A DNA stretch of 37,973 nt from an uncultured Clostridia bacterium (GTDB lineage Bacteria > Bacillota > Clostridia > Oscillospirales > Ruminococcaceae), in NCBI GenBank assembly GCA_947626755.1, contig CANQTP010000026.1, positions 1 through 37,973 of the forward strand, in the 5' to 3' direction. Positions 10,636 through 29,017 of the stretch are shown here, piece by piece. The position numbers were made by a program, and so were the translations under genes. How positions within the stretch are numbered: position 1 is the first letter of the stretch; every line of letters starts with the position of its first letter. The notes under the pieces are model-generated. The model was not told the origin of the DNA. It saw only the letters and a program-made list of their open reading frames with translations, and ran no database searches.

Positions 10636-10658
10636 TATAAATTCCCTCCACTTAATTT

Positions 10659-10745
10659 AATTCGTAATTCTTAATGCGTAATTCGTAATTAAAAGCGTGC
10701 GGATCCGGTCTGCTAATTACGCATTACGAATTACGCATTACGCAT
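10659..10745. repeat. Intergenic inverted repeat built from ATTCGTAATT / AATTACGCATTACG units
   Basis: Left arm 10659-10690 and right arm 10714-10745 consist of short units (TTCGTAATT, TGCGTAATT) that are reverse complements of each other, separated by 23 bp. The repeat fills the gap between scaffold and capsid genes, and transcripts would fold into a long AU-rich hairpin. A second copy of the same design lies at 16987-17063. Confidence 0.8.
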
Positions 10746-10747
10746 TA

Positions 10748-11290
10748 TTAATTGCGTTTTACCTGATTTTCCTTGACGATATTCAGGAAGTTTGAGCCTT
10801 TAGCGGAATTTCCCGAAGGCGGATCGCCGTGGGTGAAGCCTGTGTTCACGGGCGTTCCCTCATTTGTTTCAAACAGGAAAGCCTTATCCTTTCTGAGCTG
10901 TTCAAGCTGTTCTGAAACGCCGGTGAGCTTTCCGCCGGGGTCAAGCTTGACAACAGACTTGTCAATAAGTCCCTTGACGATCTCCGTGTCCTTTGCTCCG
11001 CTGCCTGCAAGGGCAAGGGGAAGTGCGCTGTCAAGTTTCAGTGCGGCGGTATCGTCCGCGTACTTCTTGGACATTTCCGCAAGGTCGGCTTTGAGTTTCT
11101 CAACGTCCACGCCGTCAAATTTCTTCACCGCTTCGGTCAGCTCGCCGATCTTGTCGGTCGCCATAGTCAGTTCCGCGTCCTTGTCGGCAAGCTTTTTCTT
11201 TTCGGCGGTAACTTCGGCATCATTCATGGCAATTACCTGTTTAGCCGTGTCCTCGGCAATGCCGAGCTTTGTTAATGCTTCAAGTTTCAT
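10748..11290 (-). CDS. Phage capsid scaffold protein (Gp20-like)
   Basis: The gene encodes 180 residues from ATG 11290 with AAAGGAAC upstream. The N-terminal ~90 residues are an acidic/lysine-rich coiled coil (VTAEKKKLADKDAELTMATD, then KFDGVDVEKLKADLAEMSKK). The centre is LDSALPLALAGSGAKDTEIV, a hallmark of the phage minor structural Gp20 scaffold family, and the C-terminus is disordered. It lies immediately before the major capsid gene. It would guide capsid assembly and leave or be degraded before DNA filling. Confidence 0.88.
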   Translation of the reverse strand: MKLEALTKLGIAEDTAKQVIAMNDAEVTAEKKKLADKDAELTMATDKIGELTEAVKKFDGVDVEKLKADLAEMSKKYADDTAALKLDSALPLALAGSGAKDTEIVKGLIDKSVVKLDPGGKLTGVSEQLEQLRKDKAFLFETNEGTPVNTGFTHGDPPSGNSAKGSNFLNIVKENQVKRN

Positions 11291-11318: not shown

Positions 11319-11348
11319 AAAAAAGCTCCTTAAAACGGTGTTTTAAGG
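11319..11348 (-). terminator. Intrinsic terminator inside the late operon
   Basis: On the minus strand CCTTAAAAC, a 3-base loop and GTTTTAAGG form a 9-bp stem (11328-11348), followed by AGCTTTTTTA. It stands after the two small genes downstream of the MuF gene and before the scaffold gene, so late transcription must read through it to make capsid and tail. Confidence 0.75.
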
Positions 11349-13780: not shown

Positions 13781-14154
13781 TACGCATCATCTCCGAATCC
13801 CATGTCGATCTCCTGCGAGCCTTGTATTTCGTCAATAGCCGCACGGGCGTTTTCCTTCGATTCGCCATACCATTTCATGCGGAACTCCCACGGTGCTTTT
13901 ACGCCCGCCTGAACCTCGCCCAGATCCTGCAAGCGTTCCGCAGCTTCGTCAATTACCACCGACTTGTCAAAGCATATCTCAATTTCGGGATCGTCGGAAA
14001 TATCCGCGCCGATGAAATTCCTGCCTATGTAAATTACCGAGCGTATCAGGGAAAGCAGGAACTTTTCAACAGCCAGATAATGCTTGTCGGCGTTCTGGAT
14101 AAGATCCTGACGGTCACCCGTGTACTGGGTGGCGTAGTAACTTCCTACCCCTCC
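13780..14154 (-). pseudogene. Phage portal protein, C-terminal remnant
   Basis: About 120 residues of a portal C-terminus remain (YATQYTGDRQDLIQNADKHY, then SDDPEIEICFDKSVVIDEAA and KAPWEFRMKWYGES), typical of SPP1-like portal proteins of Clostridial phages, which are usually over 400 residues. The open frame runs back to 14271, but residues upstream of ~14154 are AT-rich foreign sequence that includes a terminator, so there is no normal N-terminus. About three quarters of the gene is gone. The stop overlaps the MuF start as in an intact phage. Without clip and wing domains no portal ring should form. Confidence 0.8.
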
Positions 14155-14201
14155 CGAAAATAAATACATAAATTTAAAAATTTTAATAAAATAATATAAA
14201 T

Positions 14202-14240
14202 GGAAAAGACGTGCCGTAAATATAAAGACACGTCTTTTCC
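14202..14240 (-). terminator. Intrinsic terminator after the FN3/cell-wall-binding gene
   Basis: GGAAAAGACGTG (14202-14213) pairs with CACGTCTTTTCC (14229-14240) in a 12-bp perfect stem, followed on the minus strand by a T-rich tract. It lies 62 bp after the stop of the secreted-protein gene and before the portal remnant, so it belongs to the inserted segment and would block transcription into the downstream head genes unless it is read through. Confidence 0.8.
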
Positions 14241-14302
14241 GTTTTAAATTATTTTGTTTTGCACATTTCAATAAATTGCTTTAGGTTCAGACATAAAACA
14301 TA

Positions 14303-15406
14303 TCAATATCCCATTTCAGATAATTTATCAGAAATAGCTTCATTTATCAGAGAAAGTTCATTTTTAAAAGAGTGATATTCTCCAAGATCTTCCGGATTTC
14401 CGTCAGAAGTACCCATTATTTTTTGATCTTTAAATCCATAAGGATTTAACGGCTTTCCGATGCTGCTTTTTTCGAGTTCGTCCACTTCCTCTCCGGATTC
14501 ACTTTTATGTGTTATCAAAAAGTATGTTTCCGAATCTCTTGCGCCAAAACTATTTTTAGCAGAGATCGTCATCCAATATCCAAAATATCTATCAAAATAG
14601 TTATAATTATGAGCGGTAATGATTTTAACCGATGATGGATCTTTAAAACCATAAATGTATGTTATAACATCATCAACCAATTTTTGACCTTCTTCCGAAA
14701 GCAATACATAAGCAGGTAATTTGCCATTTACCGTTCCATCTGAATTAATAGTATAATTTGTTCCGTCAATATTTTTAGTTGTATTTGTAAACATTTTACC
14801 TGTATTGGAGAAATAATAGTAATTATCCCCGGCTTTAAGTCCACTTGTTACAGCGTTATAATTTGTTTTGTCAAAATAATAAGTATATCCATCGACCGTC
14901 TGCCAGCCGGAAGCAATTTTACCATTTACAAAATAATAAATTTTTCCATCATTTCCTTTTCGTAATCCGGTATATTTTGATGATGGTGCTGATGGAATAT
15001 CATTTTTCTTTGTAGTAACTTTTATTTTTTTACTTTTGGTTCCCTCGGTATATGAGTTACCGTTTTGTTTAATAGCAACAACTTTAAAATAATAGGTTGT
15101 ATTCTTCTTCAAATCTGTTATCTTACAAGCTGTATCAGCTATGACTTTGTATTTCAGCCACATATCAAGTTTTGCATTATATTTGTATACTCTATACGCA
15201 TAAGCACCATTTACTGCCTTCCATTTCAGATTGACAGATGTTGAAGTTCTGGTACATGAAAAACCGGTAGGGGCAGGAAGTTTTGATGCCGCTTCCGCTG
15301 TAATTACAAAAGAAGTATTGCTCTCCGTTCCTGCAGGTATACCGGAGCAAAAGCTTACCGCCATAATTGCAGCCGCTGCAAGTGAAGTTATCTTTTTGAA
15401 TTTCAT
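14303..15406 (-). CDS. Secreted protein with FN3 domain and choline-binding-like cell-wall repeats
   Basis: The gene encodes 367 residues from ATG 15406 with AAAGGAG upstream. Signal peptide: MKFKKITSLAAAAIMAVSFC with likely cleavage near residue 40. A fibronectin type III domain spans ~44-133 (VNLKWKAVNGAYAYRVYKYN; YYFKVVAIKQNG). Two to three aromatic/glycine repeats at ~150-228 (GKIYYFVNGKIASGWQTVDG; YYYFSNTGKM) are of the choline-binding/cell-wall-binding type. The last ~135 residues are an unrecognised domain. It is probably displayed on or released from the cell surface. It is not a phage structural gene: it sits in DNA that replaced the terminase-portal junction, opposite a divergent XRE regulator. 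Ligand unknown. Confidence 0.85.
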   Translation of the reverse strand: MKFKKITSLAAAAIMAVSFCSGIPAGTESNTSFVITAEAASKLPAPTGFSCTRTSTSVNLKWKAVNGAYAYRVYKYNAKLDMWLKYKVIADTACKITDLKKNTTYYFKVVAIKQNGNSYTEGTKSKKIKVTTKKNDIPSAPSSKYTGLRKGNDGKIYYFVNGKIASGWQTVDGYTYYFDKTNYNAVTSGLKAGDNYYYFSNTGKMFTNTTKNIDGTNYTINSDGTVNGKLPAYVLLSEEGQKLVDDVITYIYGFKDPSSVKIITAHNYNYFDRYFGYWMTISAKNSFGARDSETYFLITHKSESGEEVDELEKSSIGKPLNPYGFKDQKIMGTSDGNPEDLGEYHSFKNELSLINEAISDKLSEMGY

Positions 15407-15433
15407 ATGATATTCTCCTTTAAATTATATTTT

Positions 15434-15456
15434 TAGCTATTATACCATAATAGCTA
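15434..15456. promoter_or_regulatory. Palindromic operator overlapping the -10 box of the FN3 gene
   Basis: TAGCTATTAT, a 3-base spacer and ATAATAGCTA form a perfect 23-bp dyad. The minus-strand sequence TATAAT (15439-15444) lies inside it and is suitably placed upstream of the FN3 gene start at 15406. The dyad is in the 218-bp gap between this gene and the divergent XRE regulator, its obvious candidate binder. Confidence 0.6.
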
Positions 15457-15624
15457 ATAACCGTTTTTATACAAAATTGGTACAATATAACATATATTGC
15501 TATTTAAACTATACATTAATAATAATTATATCATGTTATACAGGATATGTCAACAAATATTGCGTGTCAAACTGAACAAAAATACATAATATATATTGTA
15601 CAATAAGATAAAAGGAGGATTATT

Positions 15625-15936
15625 ATGGAAATTGAAGAAAAATTTGCTGACAGACTTGTGCAGTTAAGAATGGAGAAAGGCGTATCGGCAAGAGATATGA
15701 GTTTATCTATAGGTCAAAGTCCGGGATATGTGAATAGCATAGAAAACAAGAAAAATTTTCCGTCCATGCTTTCGTTTTTTTATATATGTGAATATCTTGG
15801 CGTGACTCCAAAAGAATTTTTTGAATTTGATATGCAAAGTCCACAAAGATATAACGAAATGATAAATTATCTTAAAAAAATGAGCAAGTCAAAAATCGAT
15901 CACTTGATAGCCATTGCAAAAGATTTGACAGAGTAG
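15625..15936 (+). CDS. XRE-family helix-turn-helix regulator
   Basis: The gene encodes 103 residues from ATG 15625 behind AAAGGAGG. Residues ~8-62 are an XRE/Cro-type helix-turn-helix (RLVQLRMEKGVSARDMSLSI, then PGYVNSIENKKNFPSMLSFF); the rest is a short helical tail (MINYLKKMSKSKIDHLIAIA). It is coded opposite to the phage operon and divergent to the FN3/cell-wall-binding gene, with an operator-like dyad between them, so it probably regulates that gene. Its 3' end overlaps the end of the broken terminase frame. Confidence 0.88.
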   Translation: MEIEEKFADRLVQLRMEKGVSARDMSLSIGQSPGYVNSIENKKNFPSMLSFFYICEYLGVTPKEFFEFDMQSPQRYNEMINYLKKMSKSKIDHLIAIAKDLTE

Positions 15937-16283
15937 CAAACAAAAACAAGCGTTCCACTGTTCGATACGACGGTAAAACCCACCCGGTTCGGGAACGTCC
16001 TTGCCGTATGCTTTCTTTGCCCGCGGAAGTAATGCTCTATCCCGAAACCGTTGCAGTCACCGATAACGAGCTTTGCGGTGGGAGCGGTGGAAGCCGTTGC
16101 AAGGTGCAGCTTGTCGGGAGTCCTGCACAATTCCCGACAGAACGCGATAACATTGTCAACGGTCTTTCCCGCTCTGACCGCGCCCTCTGCCACATTGTAA
16201 ATGCAGTCACGGCAGTTCCTGATATATTCCCTGTGCTTTTCGGAGAAATTATACGGTATCGTCTTTTTGGTTATCAGTGCCAT
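15900..16283 (-). pseudogene. Terminase large subunit, N-terminal remnant
   Basis: From ATG 16283, residues 1-89 are the start of a PBSX-type large terminase: YNFSEKHREYIRNCRDCIYN, then the Walker A-like AEGAVRAGKT, then LHLATASTAPTAKLVIGDC and GFGIEHYFRGQ. Recognisable terminase ends at about 16017. The frame then runs through unrelated residues to a stop at 15900, inside the oppositely coded XRE gene. Walker B and the RNase H-like nuclease domain are missing; normal length is about 420 residues. The protein cannot cut or pump DNA. AAAGGAGGAGG lies ~25 bases upstream of the ATG, with a 15-base hairpin between them. Confidence 0.85.
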
Positions 16284-16290
16284 AAAAATT

Positions 16291-16401
16291 GCTTGCGAAG
16301 CAAGCCTCCTCCTTTCCAACGTTTTGCGGTTTTGCTTTAGCAAAATTTCGGACGTGAGTCCGAAAAGCAAAACTTGGTGCTGAAAAATTATTTTTTCAGC
16401 A
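16291..16401 (-). repeat. Structured intergenic element, copy 1 (before large terminase)
   Basis: Read on the minus strand: a dyad around the stop of the small terminase gene (GCTGAAAAA...TTTTTCAGC), then GTTTTGC, the hairpin TTCGGAC-TCAC-GTCCGAA, the hairpin TTTTGCTAAAGCAAAA, CGCAAAAC, then AAAGGAGGAGG and a further hairpin GCTTGC-TTC-GCAAGC before the start codon. It is nearly identical to the copies at 18841-18957 and 23909-23993. GTTTTGC can pair with GCAAAAC, so two alternative folds are possible. Confidence 0.85.
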
Positions 16402-16846
16402 TCTCCTCCACTTCGGAAATATCCTCTATTTCAACATCTCCGACAGGCTTGTCGCTGTACTTGTCGGGCATACGGTTTTTCAGCAGGAATTTTACAGCTT
16501 CCGCATTTGGCGGACGTTTTCTGACCTTTTCGGTGATCCGCTTCCTGCCGCCCTTATAGGAAACTTCGCGTTCGGTGTCGGACGAACCCACAGCCGCCGA
16601 AATAAGAGCAATTTCCGCTTCGGCGTTTATCAGTTCGGCATTATCCCGCAGGAACTTTGCCGCGTCCTTGTGCCGCTCTGCATAGTCTTTCATCATAGCT
16701 TTCCGCTTTTTCTTGTCGGGTTCTCTTATAAGCGCGTTGATAAAATCAGCCGCAGTTTCAGGACTTACCTGCTCGGCGGCAGTTCCCCCGACAGCCTTTA
16801 AAGCCTCTGTCAAGGCGTTTATACTTGCTTTTTGAACGGGATCCAT
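16388..16846 (-). CDS. Phage terminase small subunit
   Basis: The gene encodes 152 residues from ATG 16846 with AAGGAAGTGAG upstream; a start at 16891 would lie in the preceding terminator. The C-terminal half has the pattern found at the end of many small terminases, RKRPPNAEAVKFLLKNRMPD followed by KYSDKP, after a helical part (INAEAEIALISAAVGSSDTE). It lies directly before the large terminase remnant. Small terminases bind phage DNA to start packaging. It looks intact although its partner is broken. The stop codon lies in the dyad that begins the structured element. Confidence 0.75.
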   Translation of the reverse strand: MDPVQKASINALTEALKAVGGTAAEQVSPETAADFINALIREPDKKKRKAMMKDYAERHKDAAKFLRDNAELINAEAEIALISAAVGSSDTEREVSYKGGRKRITEKVRKRPPNAEAVKFLLKNRMPDKYSDKPVGDVEIEDISEVEEMLKK

Positions 16847-16864
16847 ATACTCACTTCCTTGTAT

Positions 16865-16911
16865 AAAAAATACGGCTCGCAGGAAACGCATGAGAACGCG
16901 TTCTGAGCCGT
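16865..16911 (-). terminator. Intrinsic terminator between LoaP-like gene and small terminase
   Basis: On the minus strand ACGGCTC (16905-16911) pairs with GAGCCGT (16872-16878), with an inner hairpin GAACGCGTTC, and is followed by ATTTTTTAT. It lies directly downstream of the NusG/LoaP-like gene and before the packaging genes, a place where a processive antiterminator would matter. Confidence 0.72.
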
Positions 16912-16986
16912 CTTTGTGTTTTGACTGATAGTTTGCCGCAAAAATCTTTAAAACGTCCCTCTAACGCGTTTTAACGCCAATTTAAC

Positions 16987-17063
16987 AATGCGTAATGCTT
17001 AATGCGTAATTCGTAATTGAAAAACATATGCAAATTACGCATTACGAATTACGAATTACGAAT
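16987..17063. repeat. Intergenic inverted repeat, second copy of the ATTCGTAATT type
   Basis: Left arm 16987-17019 (units TGCGTAAT, TTCGTAATT) and right arm 17032-17063 (ATTACGCATTACG, AATTACGAATTACG) are reverse complements around a 12-bp centre. It shares its units with 10659-10745. The rest of the gap between the small terminase and LoaP-like genes (16847-17151) holds the terminator at 16865-16911 and the small dyad ATGGC-GGA-GCCAT. Confidence 0.8.
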
Positions 17064-17151
17064 TTTTTGGCATGGCTCCGCCATTCGGCTCGGAAAATTT
17101 CCGTCCGCTCAGCCTTGCGATATACGATAACAGCCGGAACAAGGGAACGGA

Positions 17152-17646
17152 TCAACCTTGCTCCGCGTCTGCCATACTTTGTATGCTTATATTTGCCCGA
17201 TGTGTTTTGCCGCCGAATTTAACTTCAACGGAAGCCTTTTTCTGCCTGATATTCAGAAATTTTATCCTGTTCTCTTTGCCGTTTAAAAAGCCTTTGAAAG
17301 CCGTTATCCTGCCGTTTTCGTCCGTAATGAACGTTGACGGCTCTATAACTTCACCGCTGTTGGAGAGCCAGCGTATCATATCCGCTTCGTGATCCGGCAG
17401 CGGGGACGGCGCACCGAGGAATCGTATCACGCCGGGAACGGTGTTTATCCTGTGGAATATTTCAGGCGTGTAATCTATATTCACAAAAACATAAGCAGGG
17501 AACAGCAGCTTTAATTGCTTGCTCCACAATCCGTTTTTGCGGATAATAATGCGCTCTCTCGGAACGTCCGCGAGTATTTCACGTCTTATCAGTTCGGCGC
17601 GGACATTCATTTCCTTTCCGGACATGACTTGTAAAACATAGATCAT
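17152..17646 (-). CDS. NusG paralogue, LoaP-like processive antiterminator
   Basis: The gene encodes 164 residues; its ATG at 17646 overlaps the upstream stop (ATGA). Residues ~1-105 are an NGN domain (MIYVLQVMSGKEMNVRAEL; LKLLFPAYVFVNIDYTPEIF; HRINTVPGVIRFLG). A C-terminal KOW-type part at ~113-160 contains GRITAFKGFLNGKENRIKFL, then KFGGKTHRANISI. Layout and motifs are closest to LoaP-type specialised NusG proteins, which bind RNA polymerase and, at an RNA hairpin, let it pass terminators in long operons. It sits early in the late operon, upstream of at least two terminator-like hairpins native to it, so a late antiterminator is the likely role. Housekeeping NusG is unlikely given the location. 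Confidence 0.88.
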   Translation of the reverse strand: MIYVLQVMSGKEMNVRAELIRREILADVPRERIIIRKNGLWSKQLKLLFPAYVFVNIDYTPEIFHRINTVPGVIRFLGAPSPLPDHEADMIRWLSNSGEVIEPSTFITDENGRITAFKGFLNGKENRIKFLNIRQKKASVEVKFGGKTHRANISIQSMADAEQG

Positions 17647-18206
17647 TCCGCCGTCATCTCCGTTCTTTTCATTTCAAGATAATCCGAAAGCCGCTTGTAC
17701 AGTTCCGGATCGTCCCGTCCGAGTGCGGAGAATACCTTGTCTTTCACTGTATCGAATCCCATTTCGGTAATTTCCTTGTTCTTGATGTCCAGATTCCGCT
17801 TGTATGCCGATGCCCTTATCAGGTCGGATGCCTGTTTCAAAAGTTTCAGCGGGTCTATGCTTTCAAAATCATCATCGGAAAGTTTTTGAATATTGGTAAG
17901 CAGAATGTGCGACAGGATCCGTATAATGCCCTCTGTAGTGTCCATATCGGGAGTGCGGTTAATTTCATCATTGACCGCCCGAAGCGTTTCCTGAGCAAAT
18001 CTGATGCTTTCCAGTGATTCGCAGAGTCCCTGCGCGTATCGGCAGACCGCCGCCTGTGAGATCATTTCTCCGGTGCTTTGAGTGATATATTCAACGATCT
18101 CCTTGTATGTGAAATCGTTGGAAAGTATCATAGACTCCACTTCCGACTTAACGGCAGGGTCAAGCTTATCTATTTTGGAATGTTTCCGGTTATGCTTTCT
18201 TGCCAT
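17643..18206 (-). CDS. Mu gp27-like protein (DUF3486), terminase-associated
   Basis: The gene encodes 187 residues from ATG 18206. The N-terminal part RKHSKIDKLDPAVKSEVESM, NDFTYKEIVEYITQSTG and ISQAAVCRYAQGL is the helix-turn-helix pattern of the DUF3486 family (Mu gp27-like), linked to packaging in Mu-like phages. The C-terminal ~100 residues are helical. It is coupled by ATGA overlap to the LoaP-like gene. A second small-terminase-like gene lies at 16388-16846, so the division of labour is unclear. Confidence 0.82.
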   Translation of the reverse strand: MARKHNRKHSKIDKLDPAVKSEVESMILSNDFTYKEIVEYITQSTGEMISQAAVCRYAQGLCESLESIRFAQETLRAVNDEINRTPDMDTTEGIIRILSHILLTNIQKLSDDDFESIDPLKLLKQASDLIRASAYKRNLDIKNKEITEMGFDTVKDKVFSALGRDDPELYKRLSDYLEMKRTEMTAE

Positions 18207-18217
18207 ACCATCACGCC

Positions 18218-18541
18218 CTATATGTTGATGCAGGGATCATCTATCGCCCCCGCAAGAAGCTGTATGCCCTTAGCTGTCAGCTTGCCCTCTATCTCGTCCA
18301 TGCCGTAGTCTGCAAGTTCCGCATCCTTTTTGGTGTCAATGTTTCGTATGCGGATATATCCGGATTCTATCAGGTAGTTTATACTGTCTGCAAAATCATC
18401 AATATCAAGTCCGAGAGCCGCGCGGATAGACGACAGCTTGTTGAAGTCCGTCCGGAGCATATTCACGCCCCGCAGAACTTTCCCGTTATTCTCCACAAAG
18501 TCCGCCGCTCTTGCCTTTTTTATCATCTGTTCGGGGTTCAT
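18218..18541 (-). CDS. Mu gp26-like small late protein
   Basis: The gene encodes 107 residues from ATG 18541 behind AAAGGAGG, overlapping the previous stop by ATGA. It is helical with a winged-helix look (NMLRTDFNKLSSIRAALGLD, then LIESGYIRIRNIDTK and LTAKGIQLLAGAIDD). In Mu-like phages a small protein of this kind lies between the gp25-like membrane protein and the gp27/DUF3486 protein. The winged-helix impression is from secondary-structure pattern, and DNA binding is not proven. Confidence 0.65.
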   Translation of the reverse strand: MNPEQMIKKARAADFVENNGKVLRGVNMLRTDFNKLSSIRAALGLDIDDFADSINYLIESGYIRIRNIDTKKDAELADYGMDEIEGKLTAKGIQLLAGAIDDPCINI

Positions 18542-18831
18542 GATGTTCCTCCTTTGCTTATCTGCATTAAGATGTCCATAATATTGTCAAGCTTTTTATC
18601 TACTTTAGCCTGTTCGCGAAAGTAGTCGTCCTTAGTCAGATAATTGTCTTTGATACGCCGTATATCATCGGTGTTCTTTTCAATATCCTTTTTGGATATT
18701 TCAAATTCCTTAGCGGAAATTTTGTTATCAAGTTCTTTAAAAGTCCGCGTAAGGAAAAACCCTATAACTCCTATCAACAGCGTTAAAACTGCGGAATATA
18801 TTGATAAAATAGTTGTTGCTTCAATTGCCAT
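18538..18831 (-). CDS. Mu gp25-like small membrane-anchored protein (DUF2730-like)
   Basis: The gene encodes 97 residues from ATG 18831. One N-terminal membrane helix (residues ~8-28, ILSIYSAVLTLLIGVIGFFL) is followed by a coiled coil (~30-90, rich in K, E and D). This is the form of Mu gp25/DUF2730 proteins found just before the gp26/gp27 pair. It is the first gene of the late operon after the terminator at 18961-19002. AAAGGAGGAGG lies ~25 bases before the ATG, with the hairpin GCTTGC-TTC-GCAAGC between. A holin-like or spanin-like role cannot be excluded. Confidence 0.75.
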   Translation of the reverse strand: MAIEATTILSIYSAVLTLLIGVIGFFLTRTFKELDNKISAKEFEISKKDIEKNTDDIRRIKDNYLTKDDYFREQAKVDKKLDNIMDILMQISKGGTS

Positions 18832-18840
18832 ATATGATCT

Positions 18841-18957
18841 GCTTGCGAAGCAAGCCTCCTCCTTTCGATGTTTTGCGGTTTTGCTTTAGCAAAATTTCGG
18901 ACGATAGCCCGAAAAGCAAAACTCGTAGTTTGAAAAATTTATTTTTCAAACTTTACC
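18841..18957 (-). repeat. Structured intergenic element, copy 2 (late-operon leader)
   Basis: This has the same design as copy 1, in the same order on the minus strand: a 26-bp near-perfect dyad (AGTTTGAAAAAT-AA-ATTTTTCAAACT, written here in halves), GAGTTTTGC, the hairpin TTCGGGC-TATC-GTCCGAA, TTTTGCTAAAGCAAAA, CGCAAAAC, AAAGGAGGAGG and GCTTGC-TTC-GCAAGC. It forms the leader between the terminator after the Mor-like gene and the first late gene. The hairpin stem is kept while the four-base loop differs from the other copies. Confidence 0.85.
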
Positions 18958-18960
18958 TCG

Positions 18961-19002
18961 AAAAAAATAGTGTATGATTTGTTTTCACTTTAAATCATAC
19001 AC
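18961..19002 (-). terminator. Strong intrinsic terminator at the end of the early/middle operon
   Basis: GTGTATGATTT (minus-strand 5' arm, 18992-19002) pairs with AAATCATACAC (18970-18980) in an 11-bp stem with an 11-base loop, followed by TATTTTTTT. It lies 47 bp after the Mor-like gene and marks the early/late border. Confidence 0.9.
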
Positions 19003-19049
19003 CATTATTAATTGCATTTCTCTTTTCTTTTGAAAGAAATTTATGATAA

Positions 19050-19382
19050 TTAAATTTTTGTGTCCTTGTCAAATAAGGAGATCTGTCCGGGGAAAGGAGC
19101 GGCTTTGGCAGCGGTAAGAACGGGAGACGTTATCCGGCGTATCGTGCTTTCGGAAAGCGAATATTTCTTTCTGAGTTCGCTGTAATTGTAGCCGTTGAAA
19201 TCCGCCCTTATCATGTTGTCTCTTACCGAAATAGCTATCCTGTCAGGTTTGCCTATGTATATAGACGAGCCTGCATAGTTTTCCACAAGCTTCCGGTAAG
19301 CTTCCATTCCGATACATTCCGCAAGCTCCCTCTGATCGTCTTCCAGATCGTCAAGCTGTAGTTTTTCAAGCAGGCTGTCCAT
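19050..19382 (-). CDS. mor: Mor-like transcription activator of late genes
   Basis: The gene encodes 110 residues from ATG 19382 with AAAGGAAGATG upstream. The C-terminal half contains GYNYSELRKKYSLSESTIRR, the helix-turn-helix of the Mor/C family; the N-terminal part (ECIGMEAYRKLVENYAGS) fits the Mor dimerisation region. Mor activates the middle promoter of Mu. Here it is the last gene before the terminator, and the late operon follows at once, so it probably switches on late transcription directly; no separate C gene is visible. The 26-bp dyad at 18932-18957 is one possible target, though that is only inference. Confidence 0.88.
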   Translation of the reverse strand: MDSLLEKLQLDDLEDDQRELAECIGMEAYRKLVENYAGSSIYIGKPDRIAISVRDNMIRADFNGYNYSELRKKYSLSESTIRRITSPVLTAAKAAPFPGQISLFDKDTKI

Positions 19383-19401
19383 AATTCATCTTCCTTTCCG
19401 A

Positions 19402-20298
19402 TTATTCCTCTTTTTGATCCGCAAGTTTTTCAATATCCTCAAAAGATAACTGAGCATGATCCAGACCGACCCACCAACGGAAAACATCTTCACCATTTTC
19501 CCAAGGAACAGAGAGCTTATTTTCAGTCAATCCGGCTTCACGTCTTACTATCAGCATTCTGTCAAATGTTTTAACATAGAGATTTCTATACTTTGGAAAC
19601 ATAGCAAAATCGCGGAAAATACGCTTTCCTGCCATCGGACAGCCCACACAACCGACACGATCAAAGCCCATACAATATAAGGGATTTAATTTAATACGAC
19701 TTTCTTCCAGATAGTCATATACGTCAGAAGTCTCCCAGTCAATTATAGGATTACAAATCATTTTCTTTCGTTTAAAACAGCTCTCGGTCAAGCGCCGTTT
19801 ATCATCGTTATCATTTGTAAGTATTATCCTTTTATCTCTGTCATTATGTGAACCCTCATATATACCGCGAGTGTTTTTTCTGCGTCGGCTTTCTGCCCAG
19901 CGTACACCGGTAACTATAAATCTTCCGTCTCCGGAATGTTCCTTAAGTACCTCACAGCAATAACGAACGATCATTGTCGGAGGAAATTTCTTTTGAACTA
20001 TCAAACCCCACATACTTGTCCTCTTACCTTTGTAATAAGGGTAGTCAACAGTACATTTTATACCTTTGGCTTCAAGATACTTAAATTTTTCTCTTACGTG
20101 ATAAACGGTCTGCGGAGCGTCCGCGGTAGTATGACTATGAATTACTTCATACGGAATACCCGAACGATCCGCCAGAAGAAGCAACACATCACTGTCTTTG
20201 CCGCCAGAATATGTGATCATAAGCGGCTTACCATACATATCAACAGACATTTTAGACGCTTCTTTCAGACGTTCTATCGCCTTTTCCTCCAAATTCAT
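19402..20298 (-). CDS. PAPS-reductase-like PP-loop enzyme (phage)
   Basis: This 298-residue protein starts at ATG 20298 with AAAGGATC upstream; a start at 20325 would have almost no spacing from a binding site. The PP-loop SGGKDS is at 31-36. YCC (114-115), GVRWAESRRR (131-140) and cysteines C209, C217 and C220 (CMGFDRVGCVGCP) form the pattern of phage/plasmid members of the phosphoadenylylsulfate reductase/DndC-like superfamily, which adenylate or transfer sulfur. No cys operon genes are near, so sulfate assimilation is unlikely; nucleic-acid sulfur modification or defence evasion is possible. The gene is bracketed by 25-bp direct repeats (19404-19428, 20324-20348), suggesting acquisition as a cassette. 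Confidence 0.85.
   Translation of the reverse strand: MNLEEKAIERLKEASKMSVDMYGKPLMITYSGGKDSDVLLLLADRSGIPYEVIHSHTTADAPQTVYHVREKFKYLEAKGIKCTVDYPYYKGKRTSMWGLIVQKKFPPTMIVRYCCEVLKEHSGDGRFIVTGVRWAESRRRKNTRGIYEGSHNDRDKRIILTNDNDDKRRLTESCFKRKKMICNPIIDWETSDVYDYLEESRIKLNPLYCMGFDRVGCVGCPMAGKRIFRDFAMFPKYRNLYVKTFDRMLIVRREAGLTENKLSVPWENGEDVFRWWVGLDHAQLSFEDIEKLADQKEE
19404..19428. repeat. 25-bp direct repeat at the 3' end of the PAPS-reductase-like gene
   Basis: ATTCCTCTTTTTG, four variable bases, then GCAAGTTT. The same sequence with two mismatches occurs at 20324-20348, also at the 3' end of a gene, so both proteins end in LA(D/E)QKEE. Confidence 0.8.
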
Positions 20299-20321
20299 TA
20301 TATGCCGATCCTTTCTTGCGC

Positions 20322-20591
20322 TCATTCCTCTTTTTGCTCTGCAAGTTTGCACTTATTAAAAGTAATCTTCGTAAGTATAGCCAAGAAGTCTATCATATCC
20401 TTGTCTACATCTTGCGTAACATTTGCGTAAAATATCTTTATGGCTGTCAGCATGGCATATATATCGTCCGTCATATCACCGTCTTCAGATATGCATATCG
20501 GCTCAAATGTACTTGCATCTCTGTTTTCCTCATTCTTATACATATCCGTTAGTGCAACATAAAATTGCACTATCTTTTCTCCATTTGTCAT
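20322..20591 (-). CDS. Hypothetical acidic phage protein
   Basis: The gene encodes 89 residues from ATG 20591 behind GAGGTGGAG. The protein is acidic and mostly helical (MTNGEKIVQFYVALTDMYKN; DIYAMLTAIKIFYANVTQDV), with no membrane segment or known domain. Its C-terminus LAEQKEE matches that of the neighbouring PAPS-reductase-like protein because of a 25-bp direct repeat. It is coupled by overlap to the upstream 66-residue gene. I do not recognise the function. Confidence 0.65.
   Translation of the reverse strand: MTNGEKIVQFYVALTDMYKNEENRDASTFEPICISEDGDMTDDIYAMLTAIKIFYANVTQDVDKDMIDFLAILTKITFNKCKLAEQKEE
20324..20348. repeat. 25-bp direct repeat at the 3' end of the 89-residue gene
   Basis: Partner of 19404-19428 (ATTCCTCTTTTTG...GCAAGTTT, two mismatches). 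The pair encloses the PAPS-reductase-like gene in a 920-bp unit. Confidence 0.8.
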
Positions 20592-20788
20592 ATGATCTCC
20601 ACCTCCTCTAAAGAAGCTATAACTATACTGTTTTGGTATAAATCAAGCAATTCCGCCTGATGTATAGGTTTGCCGTTTACCAAGCGGAGGATATATGCAT
20701 TGAATATGTACTCTGTGTCCAGAAAAAGCCGCTCATTACGGTAACGGACTGATTTTCCAAGTGTCCTTTTTACGTCTTGTATAGTCAT
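20588..20788 (-). CDS. Hypothetical small phage protein
   Basis: The gene encodes 66 residues from ATG 20788 behind GGGAGGCA, overlapping the stop of the upstream gene (ATGA) and the start of the downstream one. It reads MTIQDVKRTLGKSVRYRNER, then strands and an amphipathic helix (KPIHQAELLDLYQNSIVIAS). The mixed alpha/beta make-up and tight coupling show a real gene; no family is recognised. Confidence 0.65.
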   Translation of the reverse strand: MTIQDVKRTLGKSVRYRNERLFLDTEYIFNAYILRLVNGKPIHQAELLDLYQNSIVIASLEEVEII

Positions 20789-21153
20789 CTGAATGCCTCC
20801 CTGTTGCGTTTTACATATTCATCAAGTCCATATATCTCACTGTTAGGTGCAAATATCCAGTCCGGATAATGCAGCACATTCCCAAACCCATAAAGCAGGA
20901 TCAGACCACTGAACGCCGGATCTTTCAAAGATGTCCTGTCAATTATCTTTATTGCCGAAAACCCGTTCAGTAAAATATATTGATCTGTTGATTGTCCATC
21001 ATAAATTTTACTTAATCTGTTATTCATTTTAATGTAAGTCATCAGCTGCTCTTTTATTGCTTTTAATTCTGTTTCAGTTTGCGTTATCACCATTACCGGC
21101 TTCCACATTGCTGCCGAAATAATAGCCGAGCATTGTTCTTTTGTTATCTTCAT
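20785..21153 (-). CDS. Hypothetical phage protein
   Basis: The gene encodes 122 residues; the ATG at 21153 overlaps the GemA-like stop (ATGA), with GAGGGCAG upstream. The N-terminus is helical (KITKEQCSAIISAAMWKPVM) and the C-terminal half holds aromatic-rich strands (GLILLYGFGNVLHYPDWIFA). It lies in a coupled run of small genes between GemA and the PAPS-reductase-like gene, a variable accessory stretch in Mu-like phages. Unknown function. Confidence 0.65.
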   Translation of the reverse strand: MKITKEQCSAIISAAMWKPVMVITQTETELKAIKEQLMTYIKMNNRLSKIYDGQSTDQYILLNGFSAIKIIDRTSLKDPAFSGLILLYGFGNVLHYPDWIFAPNSEIYGLDEYVKRNREAFR

Positions 21154-21638
21154 TTTTTCGCTGCCCTCTTTTCCGCCGACCGCACATATCTTTTCAGATA
21201 TTCGATAAGCTTTGAACCGTCCTCAAACGACACCCATTTAAAAATATCCCTGCCTGCCATAGCCGTTATACCGAGTATCTTTTCAATTGCTCCTGCCATA
21301 CGTTCGCCTACGGTAACGGAAGTGCCGTTCTCGTGAAACCGCGGTTTCTCATCAAGCTCTTGGAGACGGTACATCAGACGCCATGCAAGGGACTGCTGCT
21401 CCGCGGTCATCATTCCCGGAACGCTTTGCGGTCTCGGCTTTCTTTCCGCGGCAGGCTGATCACTGCTGTGATGCGTTCTGCTCCGCAGCTCCCTTATCAC
21501 GATTTCAGCCTGACTGTCGGGAAGTTCTTTCAGAGACTCTTTTCCTGTCAGACCGTTTACAAGCAAGTGCAGTTCATCGGTGTTCATATTCAAGCCTTTG
21601 GATAAGCCAAATATGGTTTTTCGCTGTTGTACGGTCAT
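21150..21638 (-). CDS. gemA: GemA-like protein (Mu gp16, DUF1018)
   Basis: The gene encodes 162 residues from ATG 21638 behind AAGGAG. The DUF1018/GemA pattern is clear: MTVQQRKTIFGLSKGLNMNT at the N-terminus, with KESLKELPDSQAEIVIREL, then a linker and MMTAEQQSLAWRLMYRLQEL in the second half. Mu GemA (gp16) modulates host gene expression and DNA topology; family members are standard in the middle region of Mu-like phages. Order (after replication-type genes, before Mor) agrees. Confidence 0.88.
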   Translation of the reverse strand: MTVQQRKTIFGLSKGLNMNTDELHLLVNGLTGKESLKELPDSQAEIVIRELRSRTHHSSDQPAAERKPRPQSVPGMMTAEQQSLAWRLMYRLQELDEKPRFHENGTSVTVGERMAGAIEKILGITAMAGRDIFKWVSFEDGSKLIEYLKRYVRSAEKRAAKK

Positions 21639-21642
21639 ATAC

Positions 21643-22134
21643 TCATCTCCTTATTGACGGCGTTGTGTTCATGGCATGATCCATTATTCTGTTAAGATCA
21701 TAGGAATGTTCCCTCTGCGGCTTCGGAGCGGCAGAACCGTAAGCACCTTCAAGAATTTTCTGCAAATTGTCAGGTTTGATGATAAAATCAAAATTTGCCG
21801 TCCAGTTCCGCTCGTTTTTTCCGGTCAGGAACGGAGTACCCGCCGCCGATCGGAACGCACTGCTCATATCTTCGGCGGAAAATCCCTGCGAAATGCAGGC
21901 TTTTATAGCGCGTTTGCGCTTGTCGGTGAGCTTTGTTACCTTTGGCAGAACATTTCCGCAAATTTCATTGTAGCTGTCAACGATCTGCTTGTATGGTATT
22001 TTGCCGTATTTTTCACGCTGTTTGAGAATAGCCGCGCCCAGTTCGGCGGCAGAAGCCAGAAGCTCCGCCGCCTCGTCAGGATCTGTCCGCGGATCGCATT
22101 TTTTGCAGCGTTCCACAAAGTCTTTCATTTCCAT
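21643..22134 (-). CDS. Phage replication-associated protein, helical
   Basis: About 163 residues from ATG 22134, six bases after AGGTGA; a GTG at 22143 would add three residues. The second half, YNEICGNVLPKVTKLTDKRK, then FLTGKNERNWTANFDFIIKP and DNLQKILEGAYG, is a pattern widespread at the C-terminus of phage replication-initiation/DnaD-type proteins. The N-terminal part is helical and acidic. It lies between MuB and GemA in the early region. A replisome-organiser accessory role is inferred from the motif. Confidence 0.72.
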   Translation of the reverse strand: MEMKDFVERCKKCDPRTDPDEAAELLASAAELGAAILKQREKYGKIPYKQIVDSYNEICGNVLPKVTKLTDKRKRAIKACISQGFSAEDMSSAFRSAAGTPFLTGKNERNWTANFDFIIKPDNLQKILEGAYGSAAPKPQREHSYDLNRIMDHAMNTTPSIRR

Positions 22135-22144
22135 AGCGTTCACC

Positions 22145-22441
22145 TTATGTGATCGTGAATTTCATTGATTCGGAAGTTTTGAGGAACATATCGTACAGCT
22201 TCCTGTTCTTGGCTTTTAAAGCCGCCGAATCAAAGCGGGTGGAAATGACGGGCTTGTATCTGACCGTGAACACATCGGCAGTAAGTTCATCAAGTTTAAA
22301 ATCTGTCATAGTCTGCTTGATCTCGTCTTTTGCCTGTTCGATCTCGGTTTCAAGCTGCTTTTTGGCAAGTTCCCGATCCTTGATGTCGTAGATAAGGTTT
22401 GTAATGTGTTCGATGTCGATCTTCTTTTTGGTTTTTGGCAT
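22145..22441 (-). CDS. Small coiled-coil phage protein, unknown role
   Basis: The gene encodes 98 residues. I chose ATG 22441 (MPKTKKKIDIEHITNLIYDI) because AAAGGAATG precedes it; a start at 22510 would lack a binding site. A coiled coil spans ~15-50, followed by a compact end with VFTVRYKPVISTRFDSAALK and KLYDMFLKTSESMKFTI, a sequence type common in phage early regions next to replication genes. A replication or recombination accessory role is inferred from context only. The 129-bp gap upstream has a short dyad (GGCAAGCT/AGCTTGCC) but no clear gene. Confidence 0.65.
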   Translation of the reverse strand: MPKTKKKIDIEHITNLIYDIKDRELAKKQLETEIEQAKDEIKQTMTDFKLDELTADVFTVRYKPVISTRFDSAALKAKNRKLYDMFLKTSESMKFTIT

Positions 22442-22570
22442 ATGGAACATTCCTTTCAATTTAAATTTTCCCTTGACTCTGCGTATATGAATACACGATA
22501 GGATATTCATATTTACGGGCTTGTCACCGTTGAAGCCGCATTAAGGGCAAGCTGAGCTTGCCGAATCAAT

Positions 22571-22765
22571 TTACTTGAAATTTGAGTGCAGTTCCCAACC
22601 GAACCAGATCAGTCCGATCATCAGCGGCAGGACAAGAGCCTCGCCGCCGATATTTCCCGCCGAACGGCTTCCGCTGACTTCCGCCGCCGCACCGATGAAA
22701 CCGTATATCATTGCTCCGAGAAGCATTAAAATTATGTATTTCGTTATAAGTGCAGGTCTTTTCAT
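22571..22765 (-). CDS. Small two-helix membrane protein
   Basis: The gene encodes 64 residues from ATG 22765 behind AAAGGAGG. Two hydrophobic helices (residues ~9-29, ITKYIILMLLGAMIYGFIGA, and ~43-58, LVLPLMIGLIWFGWEL) are joined by a short polar loop (SGSRSAGNIG). The product should sit in the cell membrane. It is in the early operon, so a superinfection-exclusion or similar role is more likely than a holin, but this is only inference. Confidence 0.7.
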   Translation of the reverse strand: MKRPALITKYIILMLLGAMIYGFIGAAAEVSGSRSAGNIGGEALVLPLMIGLIWFGWELHSNFK

Positions 22766-22777
22766 GAATATCCTCCT

Positions 22778-22933
22778 TTAGTTCTTGTATCTTGTTATGG
22801 TTTTTCCCGTATGCTTGTTGTACAGAACTATCATATCAGCCGTTTCACTGCATACAAGGTAATTTGCAGGCACGAGCCGCAGATTGCTTATAAGCTGTTT
22901 CTGCGAACGTGTCGGACGTTTAGGCTGCTTCAT
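22778..22933 (-). CDS. Small phage protein (DUF6906-like)
   Basis: The gene encodes 51 residues: MKQPKRPTRSQKQLISNLRL, then a strand-rich end (ANYLVCSETADMIVLYNKHT) and TRYKN. The ATG at 22933 overlaps the MuB stop (TAATG). The basic start KRPTRSQK and the C-terminal HTGKTI resemble small DUF6906-type proteins common in Clostridial prophages. Function unknown. Confidence 0.75.
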   Translation of the reverse strand: MKQPKRPTRSQKQLISNLRLVPANYLVCSETADMIVLYNKHTGKTITRYKN

Positions 22934-23898
22934 TATGCCGCACCGTCCTTTCGGAGCGGCTTTATGTCAAGTCCTGTAAGGTCAAGCTCCATAAACTTAG
23001 CCATGGCAGTCAGTCCCGGAAGATCATACTTTCCGTTGTCGTAAGCATTTGAAAAGAGGTTCACCGTGCCGCGTACAGCCTGTTGCGTCTGGGCGATCTT
23101 CCAGAGAAAATCAATTTCGGCGTTCATGTTTTTATTTACAAGTATCGGGAAAAGCAGCTCTATATCTTCACGTTTTATCTTTTTCGCGGAACATATCCGC
23201 GTCTGCTTTGTCCTGTTGCTTATCTGCGCAAACTCCGCCCGCTTGTTGCTTCCGAGCCGCCTTACCGTTTCGTTGTTGCCGATAAACATTATGCCGAGGG
23301 TCTGATCCCTGTCACGGAAGTAGTCGGAAAAAGACCTTAACGTCTCGATCGTCTTTATAGGCAGGTGCTGAGCCTCGTCGAATATAAGCACCATGCCGTC
23401 GGACAGCTTTCCGACTATGTTTATCCACATATCGTCTAAAGTAGATGAAATAGGTGCGTTAAGAGCGTTTGCAAGCAGTTTCAAAGTACTTTTAATACTC
23501 GTTAAACAGGGATTTAAAGTGAGATAGATCGCATTGTTAGGATTGTCCGAAACATACTTCTGAGCGGCTTTTGTCTTGCCTATGCCGGCATCTCCCGCGA
23601 ATATCGCAAGTCCGCCCTTGATATGGCATATTTTGATAGTGTCATATACTTTCTTTGAAATGGACGTCTGAACATAGCCTATTTCGTGGTATGTATCGTT
23701 AAGATCCGACTTTATCGCGAAATAGTCGGCGATCCGTTTCAGGTACTTATCCACATCTCCGCCGTAAGTTCCCTTGCGGAGCGGAGTAAGTATCCCTGCT
23801 GATATGCCGATTTTTTCGGCAGCCGCATTCTGCGACGGATTTTCCGCTATAAAAGCGTTAAGCTTGTCAATGATCTTCTGCTGTTCGGGTGTGTACAT
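22933..23898 (-). CDS. MuB-like AAA+ target-selection ATPase
   Basis: The gene encodes 321 residues from ATG 23898 with AAAGGAG upstream. An N-terminal helix-turn-helix at ~6-60 (NAAAEKIGISAGILTPLRKG) precedes the AAA+ domain: Walker A GDAGIGKT (102-109), Walker B MVLIFDEAQ (169-177) and the sensor region IMFIGNNETVRRL. This matches MuB, which coats target DNA, delivers it to MuA and gives target immunity. It lies right after the MuA gene, separated by copy 3 of the structured element. Length is close to that of MuB (312). Confidence 0.92.
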   Translation of the reverse strand: MYTPEQQKIIDKLNAFIAENPSQNAAAEKIGISAGILTPLRKGTYGGDVDKYLKRIADYFAIKSDLNDTYHEIGYVQTSISKKVYDTIKICHIKGGLAIFAGDAGIGKTKAAQKYVSDNPNNAIYLTLNPCLTSIKSTLKLLANALNAPISSTLDDMWINIVGKLSDGMVLIFDEAQHLPIKTIETLRSFSDYFRDRDQTLGIMFIGNNETVRRLGSNKRAEFAQISNRTKQTRICSAKKIKREDIELLFPILVNKNMNAEIDFLWKIAQTQQAVRGTVNLFSNAYDNGKYDLPGLTAMAKFMELDLTGLDIKPLRKDGAA

Positions 23899-23908
23899 AA
23901 ATTTATTC

Positions 23909-23993
23909 TCCTTTCGACGTTTTGCAGTTTTGCTTCAGCAAAATTTCGGACGGCAGTCCGAAAAGCAAAACTCGCAACTGAACTTGTTCAGCT
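23909..23993 (-). repeat. Structured intergenic element, copy 3 (between MuA and MuB)
   Basis: Read on the minus strand: a dyad holding the MuA stop (AGCTGAAC-AA-GTTCAGTT), GAGTTTTGC, the hairpin TTCGGAC-TGCC-GTCCGAA, TTTTGCTGAAGCAAAA, TGCAAAAC and AAAGGAG. It lacks the extra GCTTGC hairpin of copies 1 and 2. The first dyad has a different sequence from the other copies but keeps the shape. Confidence 0.85.
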
Positions 23994-26069: not shown

Positions 26070-26158
26070 GAACAAGCGTTTTAAAGTGTTCCGACCTGCC
26101 ATCATCAGTGCAAGGCGGTCATTCCTTGCAGACGGAACGGCTTTCCGCTCCGTTTCGG

Positions 26159-26368
26159 CTAAACGCTAAGATCTACTCCTGTCTTAAACAGGAACTGTTC
26201 CAGAACGTCGGTGCAGTCCTCATCGGGAGCATACTCCGTAAGCAGGCTGTACAGTTCATGTGCCGCTGTAAGACAACATTCTTCTGTCCTGCCGGAAAGC
26301 TCCATGATAACTATACCGATCTCACCGAGTATATCTTCGATCGCTTCTGTTAATTCAATCGTGTCCAC
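26159..26368 (-). CDS. Hypothetical small acidic protein
   Basis: The gene encodes 69 residues from a GTG at 26368, one base after the stop of the upstream gene, with GGTGAA about eight bases upstream. The protein is acidic and helical (MDTIELTEAIEDILGEIGIV; LTEYAPDEDCTDVLEQFLF), with two adjacent cysteines. It belongs to the run of small early genes before muA. No family recognised. Confidence 0.55.
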   Translation of the reverse strand: MDTIELTEAIEDILGEIGIVIMELSGRTEECCLTAAHELYSLLTEYAPDEDCTDVLEQFLFKTGVDLSV

Positions 26369-28765: not shown

Positions 28766-29017
28766 ACGAAAACATTGGTCTATTGAAAATCAGCTGCATT
28801 GGTGTCTTGATGTTATTTTCAGAGAAGATGCTTCAAGGGCAAGAAAAGATAATTCTCCGTTAAATTTGAATATACTTCGTAAAACTGCACTTTCTCTTTT
28901 AAATCAGGCTAAATATGGTCGCCTTAGTAAGAAAAGAATGAGATTTAAGGCTTCTCTTAACCCCGATGTCTTACTTTCTGTTCTTTTTACTCATAAAAAG
29001 TAAATGCTGTTGCCGTG
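28766..29017 (+). pseudogene. ISAs1-family transposase, 3' fragment split by the prophage
   Basis: The sequence from 28766 (ACGAAAACATTGG) to the IS end near 29017 is the last ~78 codons of an ISAs1-family transposase (KHWSIENQLHWCLDVIFRED; RKDNSPLNLNILRKTALSLL), ending with TAA at 29001-29003 and the terminal CTGTTGCCGTG. It differs from the copy at 37279-37530 at about seven bases in 252. The 5' part is not in the window. It was cut when the Mu-like element inserted, and should lie beyond the other prophage end. Confidence 0.9.

Follow-up and report, generated by a model that had tools for sequence, protein, structure and literature searches.

On which RNA does the proposed antiterminator of a Mu-like prophage act? 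The question is raised by a stretch of 37,973 nucleotides from an uncultured Clostridia bacterium of the Ruminococcaceae (contig CANQTP010000026.1; hereafter the window, meaning the whole stretch at this length), in which the late operon of a prophage carries a gene for a LoaP-like paralogue of NusG. A reading of the window from its letters alone (the sequence-only reading) had proposed an antitermination circuit made of this protein, terminators inside the operon and a structured element repeated three times at operon joints. The kind of circuit proposed was probably right, but the RNA assigned to it was wrong: a LoaP-like, hairpin-directed circuit is well supported by comparative evidence, but the RNA that tracks LoaP is RAGATH-28 (Rfam family RF03052), not the repeat. 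The gene and the terminators had been seen, whereas a RAGATH-28-like RNA (17161-17075) and a hairpin at 19001-18960 had been overlooked. Judging from sequence comparison, the LoaP-like antiterminator probably works on the transcript of its own gene, through a RAGATH-28-type signal starting at the stop codon. The correction matters, as the flagged repeat would have pointed experiments to the wrong RNA.

RAGATH-28 behind LoaP genes

Co-occurrence was measured in 396 genomes of the family, among which a LoaP-like gene was found in 24 (E 1e-10) and 372 were without one. RF03052 was matched (E <=0.01) in 23 of the 24 LoaP genomes and in none of the 372 others (Fisher p = 2e-36). The one LoaP genome lacking a match is the window's own, because its copy is sub-threshold. 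The gathering score of RF03052 was exceeded by 11 of the 25 matches in the family genomes, the relative G051 reaching 78.6 bits, and a further 371 genomes of the class yielded 2 matches. In all 27 matches (25 family and 2 class), a LoaP-like gene lies within about 260 nt on the 5' side. In the relative L091, the RNA stands at the same place behind LoaP and scores 32.8 bits, also under the gathering score.

The 3' ends of LoaP genes were then compared at 20 loci, that is, the window and 19 loci with an intact 3' end (locus L107 was excluded because its gene runs off the contig). All 20 carry the hairpin motif G(T/C)(T/C)GATNCG and the block GGCGNAGC, at a spacing of 67-78 nt in 19 loci and 108 nt in one; a strict hairpin script failed on five LoaP loci that do have the motif. 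In the 383 kb of these loci, ATGGCGNAGC occurs 27 times in sense and once in antisense orientation, and seven of the 27 sense occurrences sit elsewhere, with no UNCG motif preceding them.

In the window, the RAGATH-28-like RNA starts at the LoaP stop codon, upstream of the terminator at 16911-16865, and has the 5' hairpin of RAGATH-28 and the terminal AUGGCGNAGC at the spacing of the model. An array of palindromic repeats of the type AATTACG(A/C)ATTACG lies directly behind this RNA, at 16982-17067, with similar repeats at 10658-10763.

Among 35 phage copies of the RNA that were examined, 28 distinct ones pass a strict pattern, four fail with variants and three are duplicates. In the 28 distinct copies, position N of the UNCG loop is T in 19, A in four, C in three and G in two. 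The outer stem of the hairpin has a mean of 5.1 pairs (capped at 6), compared to 3.3 (maximum 3.9) when the arms are shuffled among copies. The bulge of the phage hairpin is UU or UC and its closing pair is mostly A-U. Furthermore, TGGCG-N-AGC (N = A, G or C) is invariant and TGGCGNAGC is without change in 28 of 28, and a second hairpin terminates directly before the block (Rfam alignment, alignment A4). The consensus of a transcriptional pause, G-10 Y-1 G+1, fits 15 of the 28 blocks, against roughly a quarter expected by chance on a rough estimate.

Terminator-like hairpins are enriched behind the block. On a simple scale devised for this analysis, a score of >=30 was reached in 15 of 20 stretches of 200 nt taken 3' of the block, compared to 41 of 392 other 200-nt stretches upstream of open reading frames (ORFs), which served as control. 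The window's own stretch is absent from the 15 because it was cut inside the strong terminator (score 29.5). Given this enrichment, the order UNCG hairpin, block, terminator and next late gene is common in these phages. Within the window, the terminators noted earlier at 16865-16911 and 11319-11348 are indeed terminator-like hairpins, and the former is probably a real target of read-through. Both, and the hairpin at 18960-19001, have folds more stable than those of shuffled sequences (z values in Table 1). The stretch at 16946-16976 folds no better than its shuffles (z 0.08). The hairpin at 18960-19001 lies between a good promoter match (19043-19072) and the late genes, which resembles an attenuator-like leader; no hairpin of the GATNCG type was found in this leader.

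Viral sequences were searched in two ways that do not begin from co-occurrence in genomes. A scan by the RNA pattern alone returned seven contigs, and a LoaP-like gene lies directly 5' of the signal in all seven. A second set, anchored on the neighbouring Mu gp27 gene, comprises 31 loci (26 viral contigs and five phage stretches), 27 with LoaP and four without. The signal is absent from all four LoaP-less loci, Mushuvirus mushu among them. Of the 27 LoaP loci, 17 have both blocks by the strict pattern and four more have them as variants. Variants of both blocks were recognised by eye in L307, L321 and L327 (RF03052 scores of 43.1, 28.0 and 47.5 bits), and L328 was grouped with L327 by shared LoaP score and layout, not by inspection of its own 3' flank. 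Counts across the viral sets are not fully independent because L283/L313, L284/L310, L285 and L289/L324 overlap in part; in addition, L315 and L316 appear to be one phage, as do L327 and L328. Three related phage records derive from human faeces. A viral scan with the window's LoaP protein as sole query found no relative.

The protein itself belongs to the NusG family. Its ORF matches the Pfam NusG family (4e-15) and corresponds to PHROG 6386, annotated as "transcription antiterminator" (1.6e-25), and the gene order gp27-LoaP is found again in relatives. The ORF is intact, and its AlphaFold2 model has a pLDDT of 93.4. The best matches of the model in the Protein Data Bank (PDB) are three chains of 8f5g, titled "NusG-RNA complex" (8f5g_C: E 1.7e-12, TM 0.82 by query length; the other listed entries reach at most 0.55), which is probably the LoaP-RNA structure mentioned in PMC12691694. 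Published RNA-contact residues were located by reference to LoaP L297, whose letters fit the published E40, R41, I143 and K128. The equivalents of R41 and I143 are kept in the window protein and that of E40 is I; the R41 equivalent is retained in 19 of 19 phage proteins, the window's included. With a score under the NCBIfam cut-off for LoaP, the window protein is called LoaP-like here, not LoaP.

Under the proposed mechanism, late transcription would yield gp27 and LoaP and would halt at the terminator or terminators that precede the following terminase gene. The UNCG hairpin would fold in the RNA just behind the LoaP gene, and polymerase would be paused by the second hairpin and the TGGCGNAGC block. 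LoaP would bind the UNCG hairpin and be handed to the polymerase. So modified, the polymerase would pass the terminator at 16911-16865, perhaps also the site at 11348-11319, and reach the genes for packaging and virion. Expression of the packaging and structural genes would thus be delayed until LoaP has been made. This would place LoaP-type antitermination in Mu-like phages of one family, with the protein apparently controlling access to packaging and virion genes from a position within the late operon, and it would offer a probable function for RAGATH-28, an RNA family with no assigned function. The gene, the RNA, their conserved order and spacing, their tight co-occurrence, the signal parts common with some bacterial LoaP loci and the predicted fold are observed; binding, pausing and read-through in this system we infer from them.

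Table 1. Features of the window that bear on the proposed circuit and on the repeat (positions in the window; all on the minus strand).
Feature	Position	Strand	Evidence or remark
RAGATH-28-like RNA (RF03052), proposed LoaP loading signal; overlaps last LoaP codons	17075..17161	-	cmscan 29.4 bits; same place in relatives
UNCG hairpin of this RNA; loop UCCG 17151-17148, two-base 5' bulge	17136..17164	-	
Second hairpin, directly 5' of invariant block, pause-hairpin-like position	17086..17107	-	Rfam alignment, alignment A4
Invariant 3' block AATGGCGGAGC (TGGCGNAGC), 74 nt from UNCG motif	17075..17085	-	
LoaP-like NusG paralogue, 164 aa, proposed antiterminator	17152..17646	-	Pfam, NCBIfam, PHROG, AF2 (AlphaFold2), fold match
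Mu gp27 / terminase small-subunit gene, conserved neighbour directly before LoaP	17643..18206	-	PF11985, phrog_426, synteny
Terminase small-subunit-like gene, first past terminator	16388..16891	-	phrog_309
Late transcriptional activator	19050..19382	-	phrog_532
Intrinsic terminator-like hairpin with U run, between RNA and next gene	16865..16911	-	-18.8 kcal/mol, z -2.5
Weaker A+T-rich terminator-like hairpin, upstream of the strong one	16946..16976	-	similar in L091
Terminator-like hairpin further down late operon, possible later read-through site	11319..11348	-	-16.3 kcal/mol, z -6.0
Terminator-like hairpin just before late-leader repeat copy	18960..19001	-	z -4.3
Three-way-junction element, late-leader copy, outside LoaP system	18859..18927	-	
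Three-way-junction element before large-terminase fragment, outside LoaP system	16309..16378	-	
Three-way-junction element before MuB, outside LoaP system	23908..23976	-	

Comparison with known recruitment signals

In the leader of the dfn operon of Bacillus velezensis, antitermination depends on a UNCG-type hairpin to which LoaP binds, and there is a pause roughly midway between this hairpin and the terminator, according to the LoaP sections of PMC12691694. LoaP alone opposed NusA in vitro (PMC12691694). These sections do not discuss a second block. With single-stranded DNAs taken from immediately upstream of the dfn hairpin, binding by LoaP was only weak and non-specific. The dfn/mln system of B. 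velezensis and the phages share a NusG paralogue, a UNCG-type hairpin and, downstream of it, a pause and an intrinsic terminator, the phage pause being a predicted one. They differ in that the phage signal lies behind loaP inside the late operon, whereas the dfn/mln signal lies in the leader of an antibiotic operon. The bulge and closing pair of the phage hairpin and the sub-cut-off score of the window protein are further differences.

A dfn leader was found beside LoaP in two Bacillus genomes with a dfnA-like start; our identification of it as dfn rests on gene content and residue numbering. It reads CGCTGTTTCGGCACG, then GAGGAAATAG, then GGGAGAAGTGTGCC. The last of these stands about 72 nt after the loop, and behind it comes an inverted repeat that has a T run and looks like a strong terminator, so that the order of hairpin, block and terminator is as in these phages; TGGCGNAGC, however, is strict in the phages and degenerate in dfn.

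From 59 genomes with an over-cut-off match, 30 canonical LoaP loci were collected. In seven of them a script detected, 3' of the gene, a UNCG hairpin whose bulge is a single base. A degenerate block is visible behind the hairpin in L211, L212 and L218, and none is visible in L202 and L205. The sequences of L209 and L250, drawn from two collections, are near-identical.

A scan of 84,980 species with the pattern TGTTTCGGC-gap-ATGGCGAAGCT returned 52 stretches with 53 matches, and LoaP is present within the fetched DNA in 14 stretches, of which 13 are convincing; L280 is probably a chance match, since what was read there as the block is where the LoaP reading frame starts. Among the 13, ten have the signal no more than about 160 nt 3' of LoaP; in L235 and L256 it lies 1.4 and 2.3 kb 3' of the gene, and in L249 just 5' of it. 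The hosts include Clostridium frigoris, Clostridium tagluense, Paenibacillus tyrfis, Desulfotruncus arcticus, Thermoclostridium caenicola and a Leptospiraceae genome. Eleven other stretches (L231, L232, L238, L245, L248, L253, L254, L255, L263, L264 and L277) have a LoaP-like signature by eye; LoaP is absent within the DNA fetched for them (8 kb or less) and they were not counted. The remaining 27 look like chance matches. Two LoaP-type signal matches lie 1.9 kb apart in Thermoanaerobacterium saccharolyticum (L248), and one Spirochaetia contig (L232, L235) also has two, an arrangement that may indicate multi-site LoaP regulons. The UNCG hairpin and a second conserved block, TGGCGNAGC, are found together near LoaP genes of phages, clostridia and spirochaetes.

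Two other known systems can be set beside this signal. In phage lambda, N acting at nut is likewise a phage protein that, with a nascent RNA hairpin, frees polymerase from terminators; N is an unrelated protein and works with several Nus factors, whereas LoaP alone opposes NusA (PMC12691694, LoaP sections). In the passages of PMC5995543 that bear on ops, the 12-nt element GGCGGTAGCGTG forms a hairpin in the non-template DNA with a C3:G8 pair and a G4-A7 loop, and recruitment of RfaH rests on this DNA and not on an RNA hairpin. The block GGCGNAGC is not the exact ops GGCGGTAGCGTG, and it could form the identical G-C core with a loop shorter by one base. This GNA loop is reminiscent of very stable DNA mini-hairpins. 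The resemblance of the block to the ops hairpin and to the pause consensus is suggestive only.

It is possible, as a tentative generalization, that LoaP proteins of phages and bacteria load at a bipartite signal. One part would be a UNCG hairpin; the other, some 75 nt further downstream, would be a pause backed by a hairpin, with its core TGGCGNAGC read in the non-template DNA like ops. RAGATH-28 would then be the phage form of this signal and the dfn pause would lie at a degenerate copy of the block. If so, LoaP would unite recruitment by RNA and by non-template DNA, the two known modes of NusG paralogues. Our literature search found no paper that names RAGATH-28, and no phage LoaP signal is described in the consulted literature on LoaP in prophages, which included passages of PMC7819879.

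Alternative explanations and the state of the prophage

The tight co-occurrence could also be explained by linkage. RAGATH-28 may simply belong to the same phage module and do another job there, such as controlling the stability of the LoaP mRNA or stopping transcription behind LoaP, without being a loading site. Since every observed match places RAGATH-28 at the end of the LoaP gene, the same counts would be expected from simple linkage. We nevertheless regard this explanation as unlikely. Some bacterial LoaP genes are followed by a UNCG hairpin and a TGGCGAAGC block at a similar spacing. The dfn leader runs divergently to its LoaP gene, and yet this proven target of LoaP contains the hairpin together with a degenerate form of the block. 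Moreover, in the two controls for linkage (the RNA-only viral scan and the gp27-anchored set) the signal goes with LoaP, in seven of seven contigs and in none of the four LoaP-less loci.

Several observations weigh against loading of LoaP at this signal, in the window or more widely. The LoaP-like ORF scores 113.8 bits against the NCBIfam LoaP model NF033641, under the curated cut-off of 125, and the equivalent of E40 is I, one change among three RNA-contact residues. The RF03052 match in the window reaches 29.4 bits, compared to a gathering score of 45.3, and the full-length RNA folds no better than its shuffles (z -0.63). In the gp27-anchored set, three of the 27 LoaP loci (L322, L323 and L325) have the hairpin without a 3' block, two (L326 and L332) have the block without a recognisable UNCG hairpin, and one (L331) ends at a contig edge. 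Among the 30 canonical loci, the script found no such hairpin within +-1.5 kb in 23, three of which (L207, L216 and L224) show a similar UNCG stretch by eye, and the exact block ATGGCGAAGCTATG is present in only two of the seven hairpin loci, L209 and L230, 65-70 nt on. Finally, damage to terminase and portal in this prophage may have made the circuit irrelevant in the window copy.

The last point has a stronger form, in which the system is real in the relatives and dead in the window. In favor of it are the sub-threshold RNA and the large terminase, whose matched part breaks off after about 89 residues, with an unrelated secreted-protein gene coming next. On the other side, the LoaP ORF is intact with a confident model, and the window copy keeps the UNCG loop, the stem (10 outer pairs) and TGGCGNAGC. 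We consider a dead system improbable, and prefer to describe the window copy as a divergent one in a prophage that looks defective. RAGATH-28 as found in relatives remains the closest known RNA, with two hairpins and the terminal AUGGCGAAGC at the same place behind LoaP; the window copy differs in scoring under the cut-off.

The disrupted region spans 13900-16020, where the secreted-protein gene (14303-15406) encodes fibronectin-III and cell-wall repeats. A small regulator-like ORF was recognised by eye on the plus strand at 15625-15936.

The three-way-junction repeat and other elements

The repeat to which the sequence-only reading had assigned the loading role is a genuine structured element, in three copies as claimed. 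Each copy forms a three-way junction followed by AAAGGAG, a Shine-Dalgarno sequence, and in two of the three a hairpin lies between this and the start codon. Over 102 matches, in an alignment that was fitted to the structure and includes a few partial or reverse-strand rows, 96.7% of cells are paired, changes on both sides are seen in 23 of 24 pairs, and the covariation score is 0.436 compared to 0.135 in shuffles. The repeat in the window matches no Rfam family at E <=1.

Its distribution does not follow LoaP. Repeat-positive genomes number 53 of the 396 in the family, 6 of 24 with LoaP and 47 of 372 without (p = 0.11); the 53 are a lower bound because 12 candidates were scored per genome. 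No copy (E <=0.05) was found in 20 other LoaP neighbourhoods of 3-20 kb each, drawn from the 26 LoaP places besides the window. The idea that the repeat belongs to the phage and to LoaP was not sustained, since 47 of the 53 positive genomes have no LoaP-like gene and the 20 neighbourhoods have no repeat; it is a dispersed family with no significant tracking of LoaP. Such occurrence without LoaP is also what the sequence-only reading itself had named as grounds for refutation. The repeat was rejected as LoaP target on these two counts and on the dozens of copies that stand before other genes. Loading of the LoaP-like protein on it is very improbable: the three copies lie at operon joints within 7 kb of the LoaP-like gene and their structure is strongly supported, but they have no UNCG loop, and neither a significant association with LoaP in the genomes nor a copy in the neighbourhoods above was seen.

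Two further copies lie on contigs C5 and C95 of the same genome, and others were noted at L026:10530-10596 and L033:5235-5301. Eight genomes of the genus, the window's own included and picked as already repeat-positive, hold 121 matches; a stricter DNA pattern was positive in 3 of 21 genus genomes. After removal of nine secondary, partial or reverse-strand matches from the 102, 93 copies were left, of which 64 have a Shine-Dalgarno-like match, 64 have an ORF start within 60 nt and 59 have both, compared to five with an ORF start on the opposite strand. The genes behind the repeat resemble ordinary host genes by eye (for example yidC, rbfA, pyrE, hisA and ispD). A viral scan with the repeat pattern gave no match, and the literature search, in the sources as far as consulted, returned nothing apparently relevant. 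In this genus the element often has a hairpin ahead of the start codon. We take the repeat to be a dispersed intercistronic element, strand-oriented and separate from the LoaP system, that may tune translation. A second class of the junction fold, without a Shine-Dalgarno sequence (L145, L147, L148, L153 and others), is intergenic and more like a small mobile repeat.

Other elements were observed in the window. A type II hammerhead ribozyme (26090-26160; 43.4 bits, over threshold) lies just upstream of MuA, and such a ribozyme is also present in the related phages L091, L092 and L093. A weak match to the type-P1 twister (28.4 bits, compared to a gathering score of 67.2) lies in the early region at 22471-22547. 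An inverted repeat of 252 nt (28766-29017 and 37279-37530, 97% complementary) encloses some 8 kb and resembles the termini of a composite mobile element.

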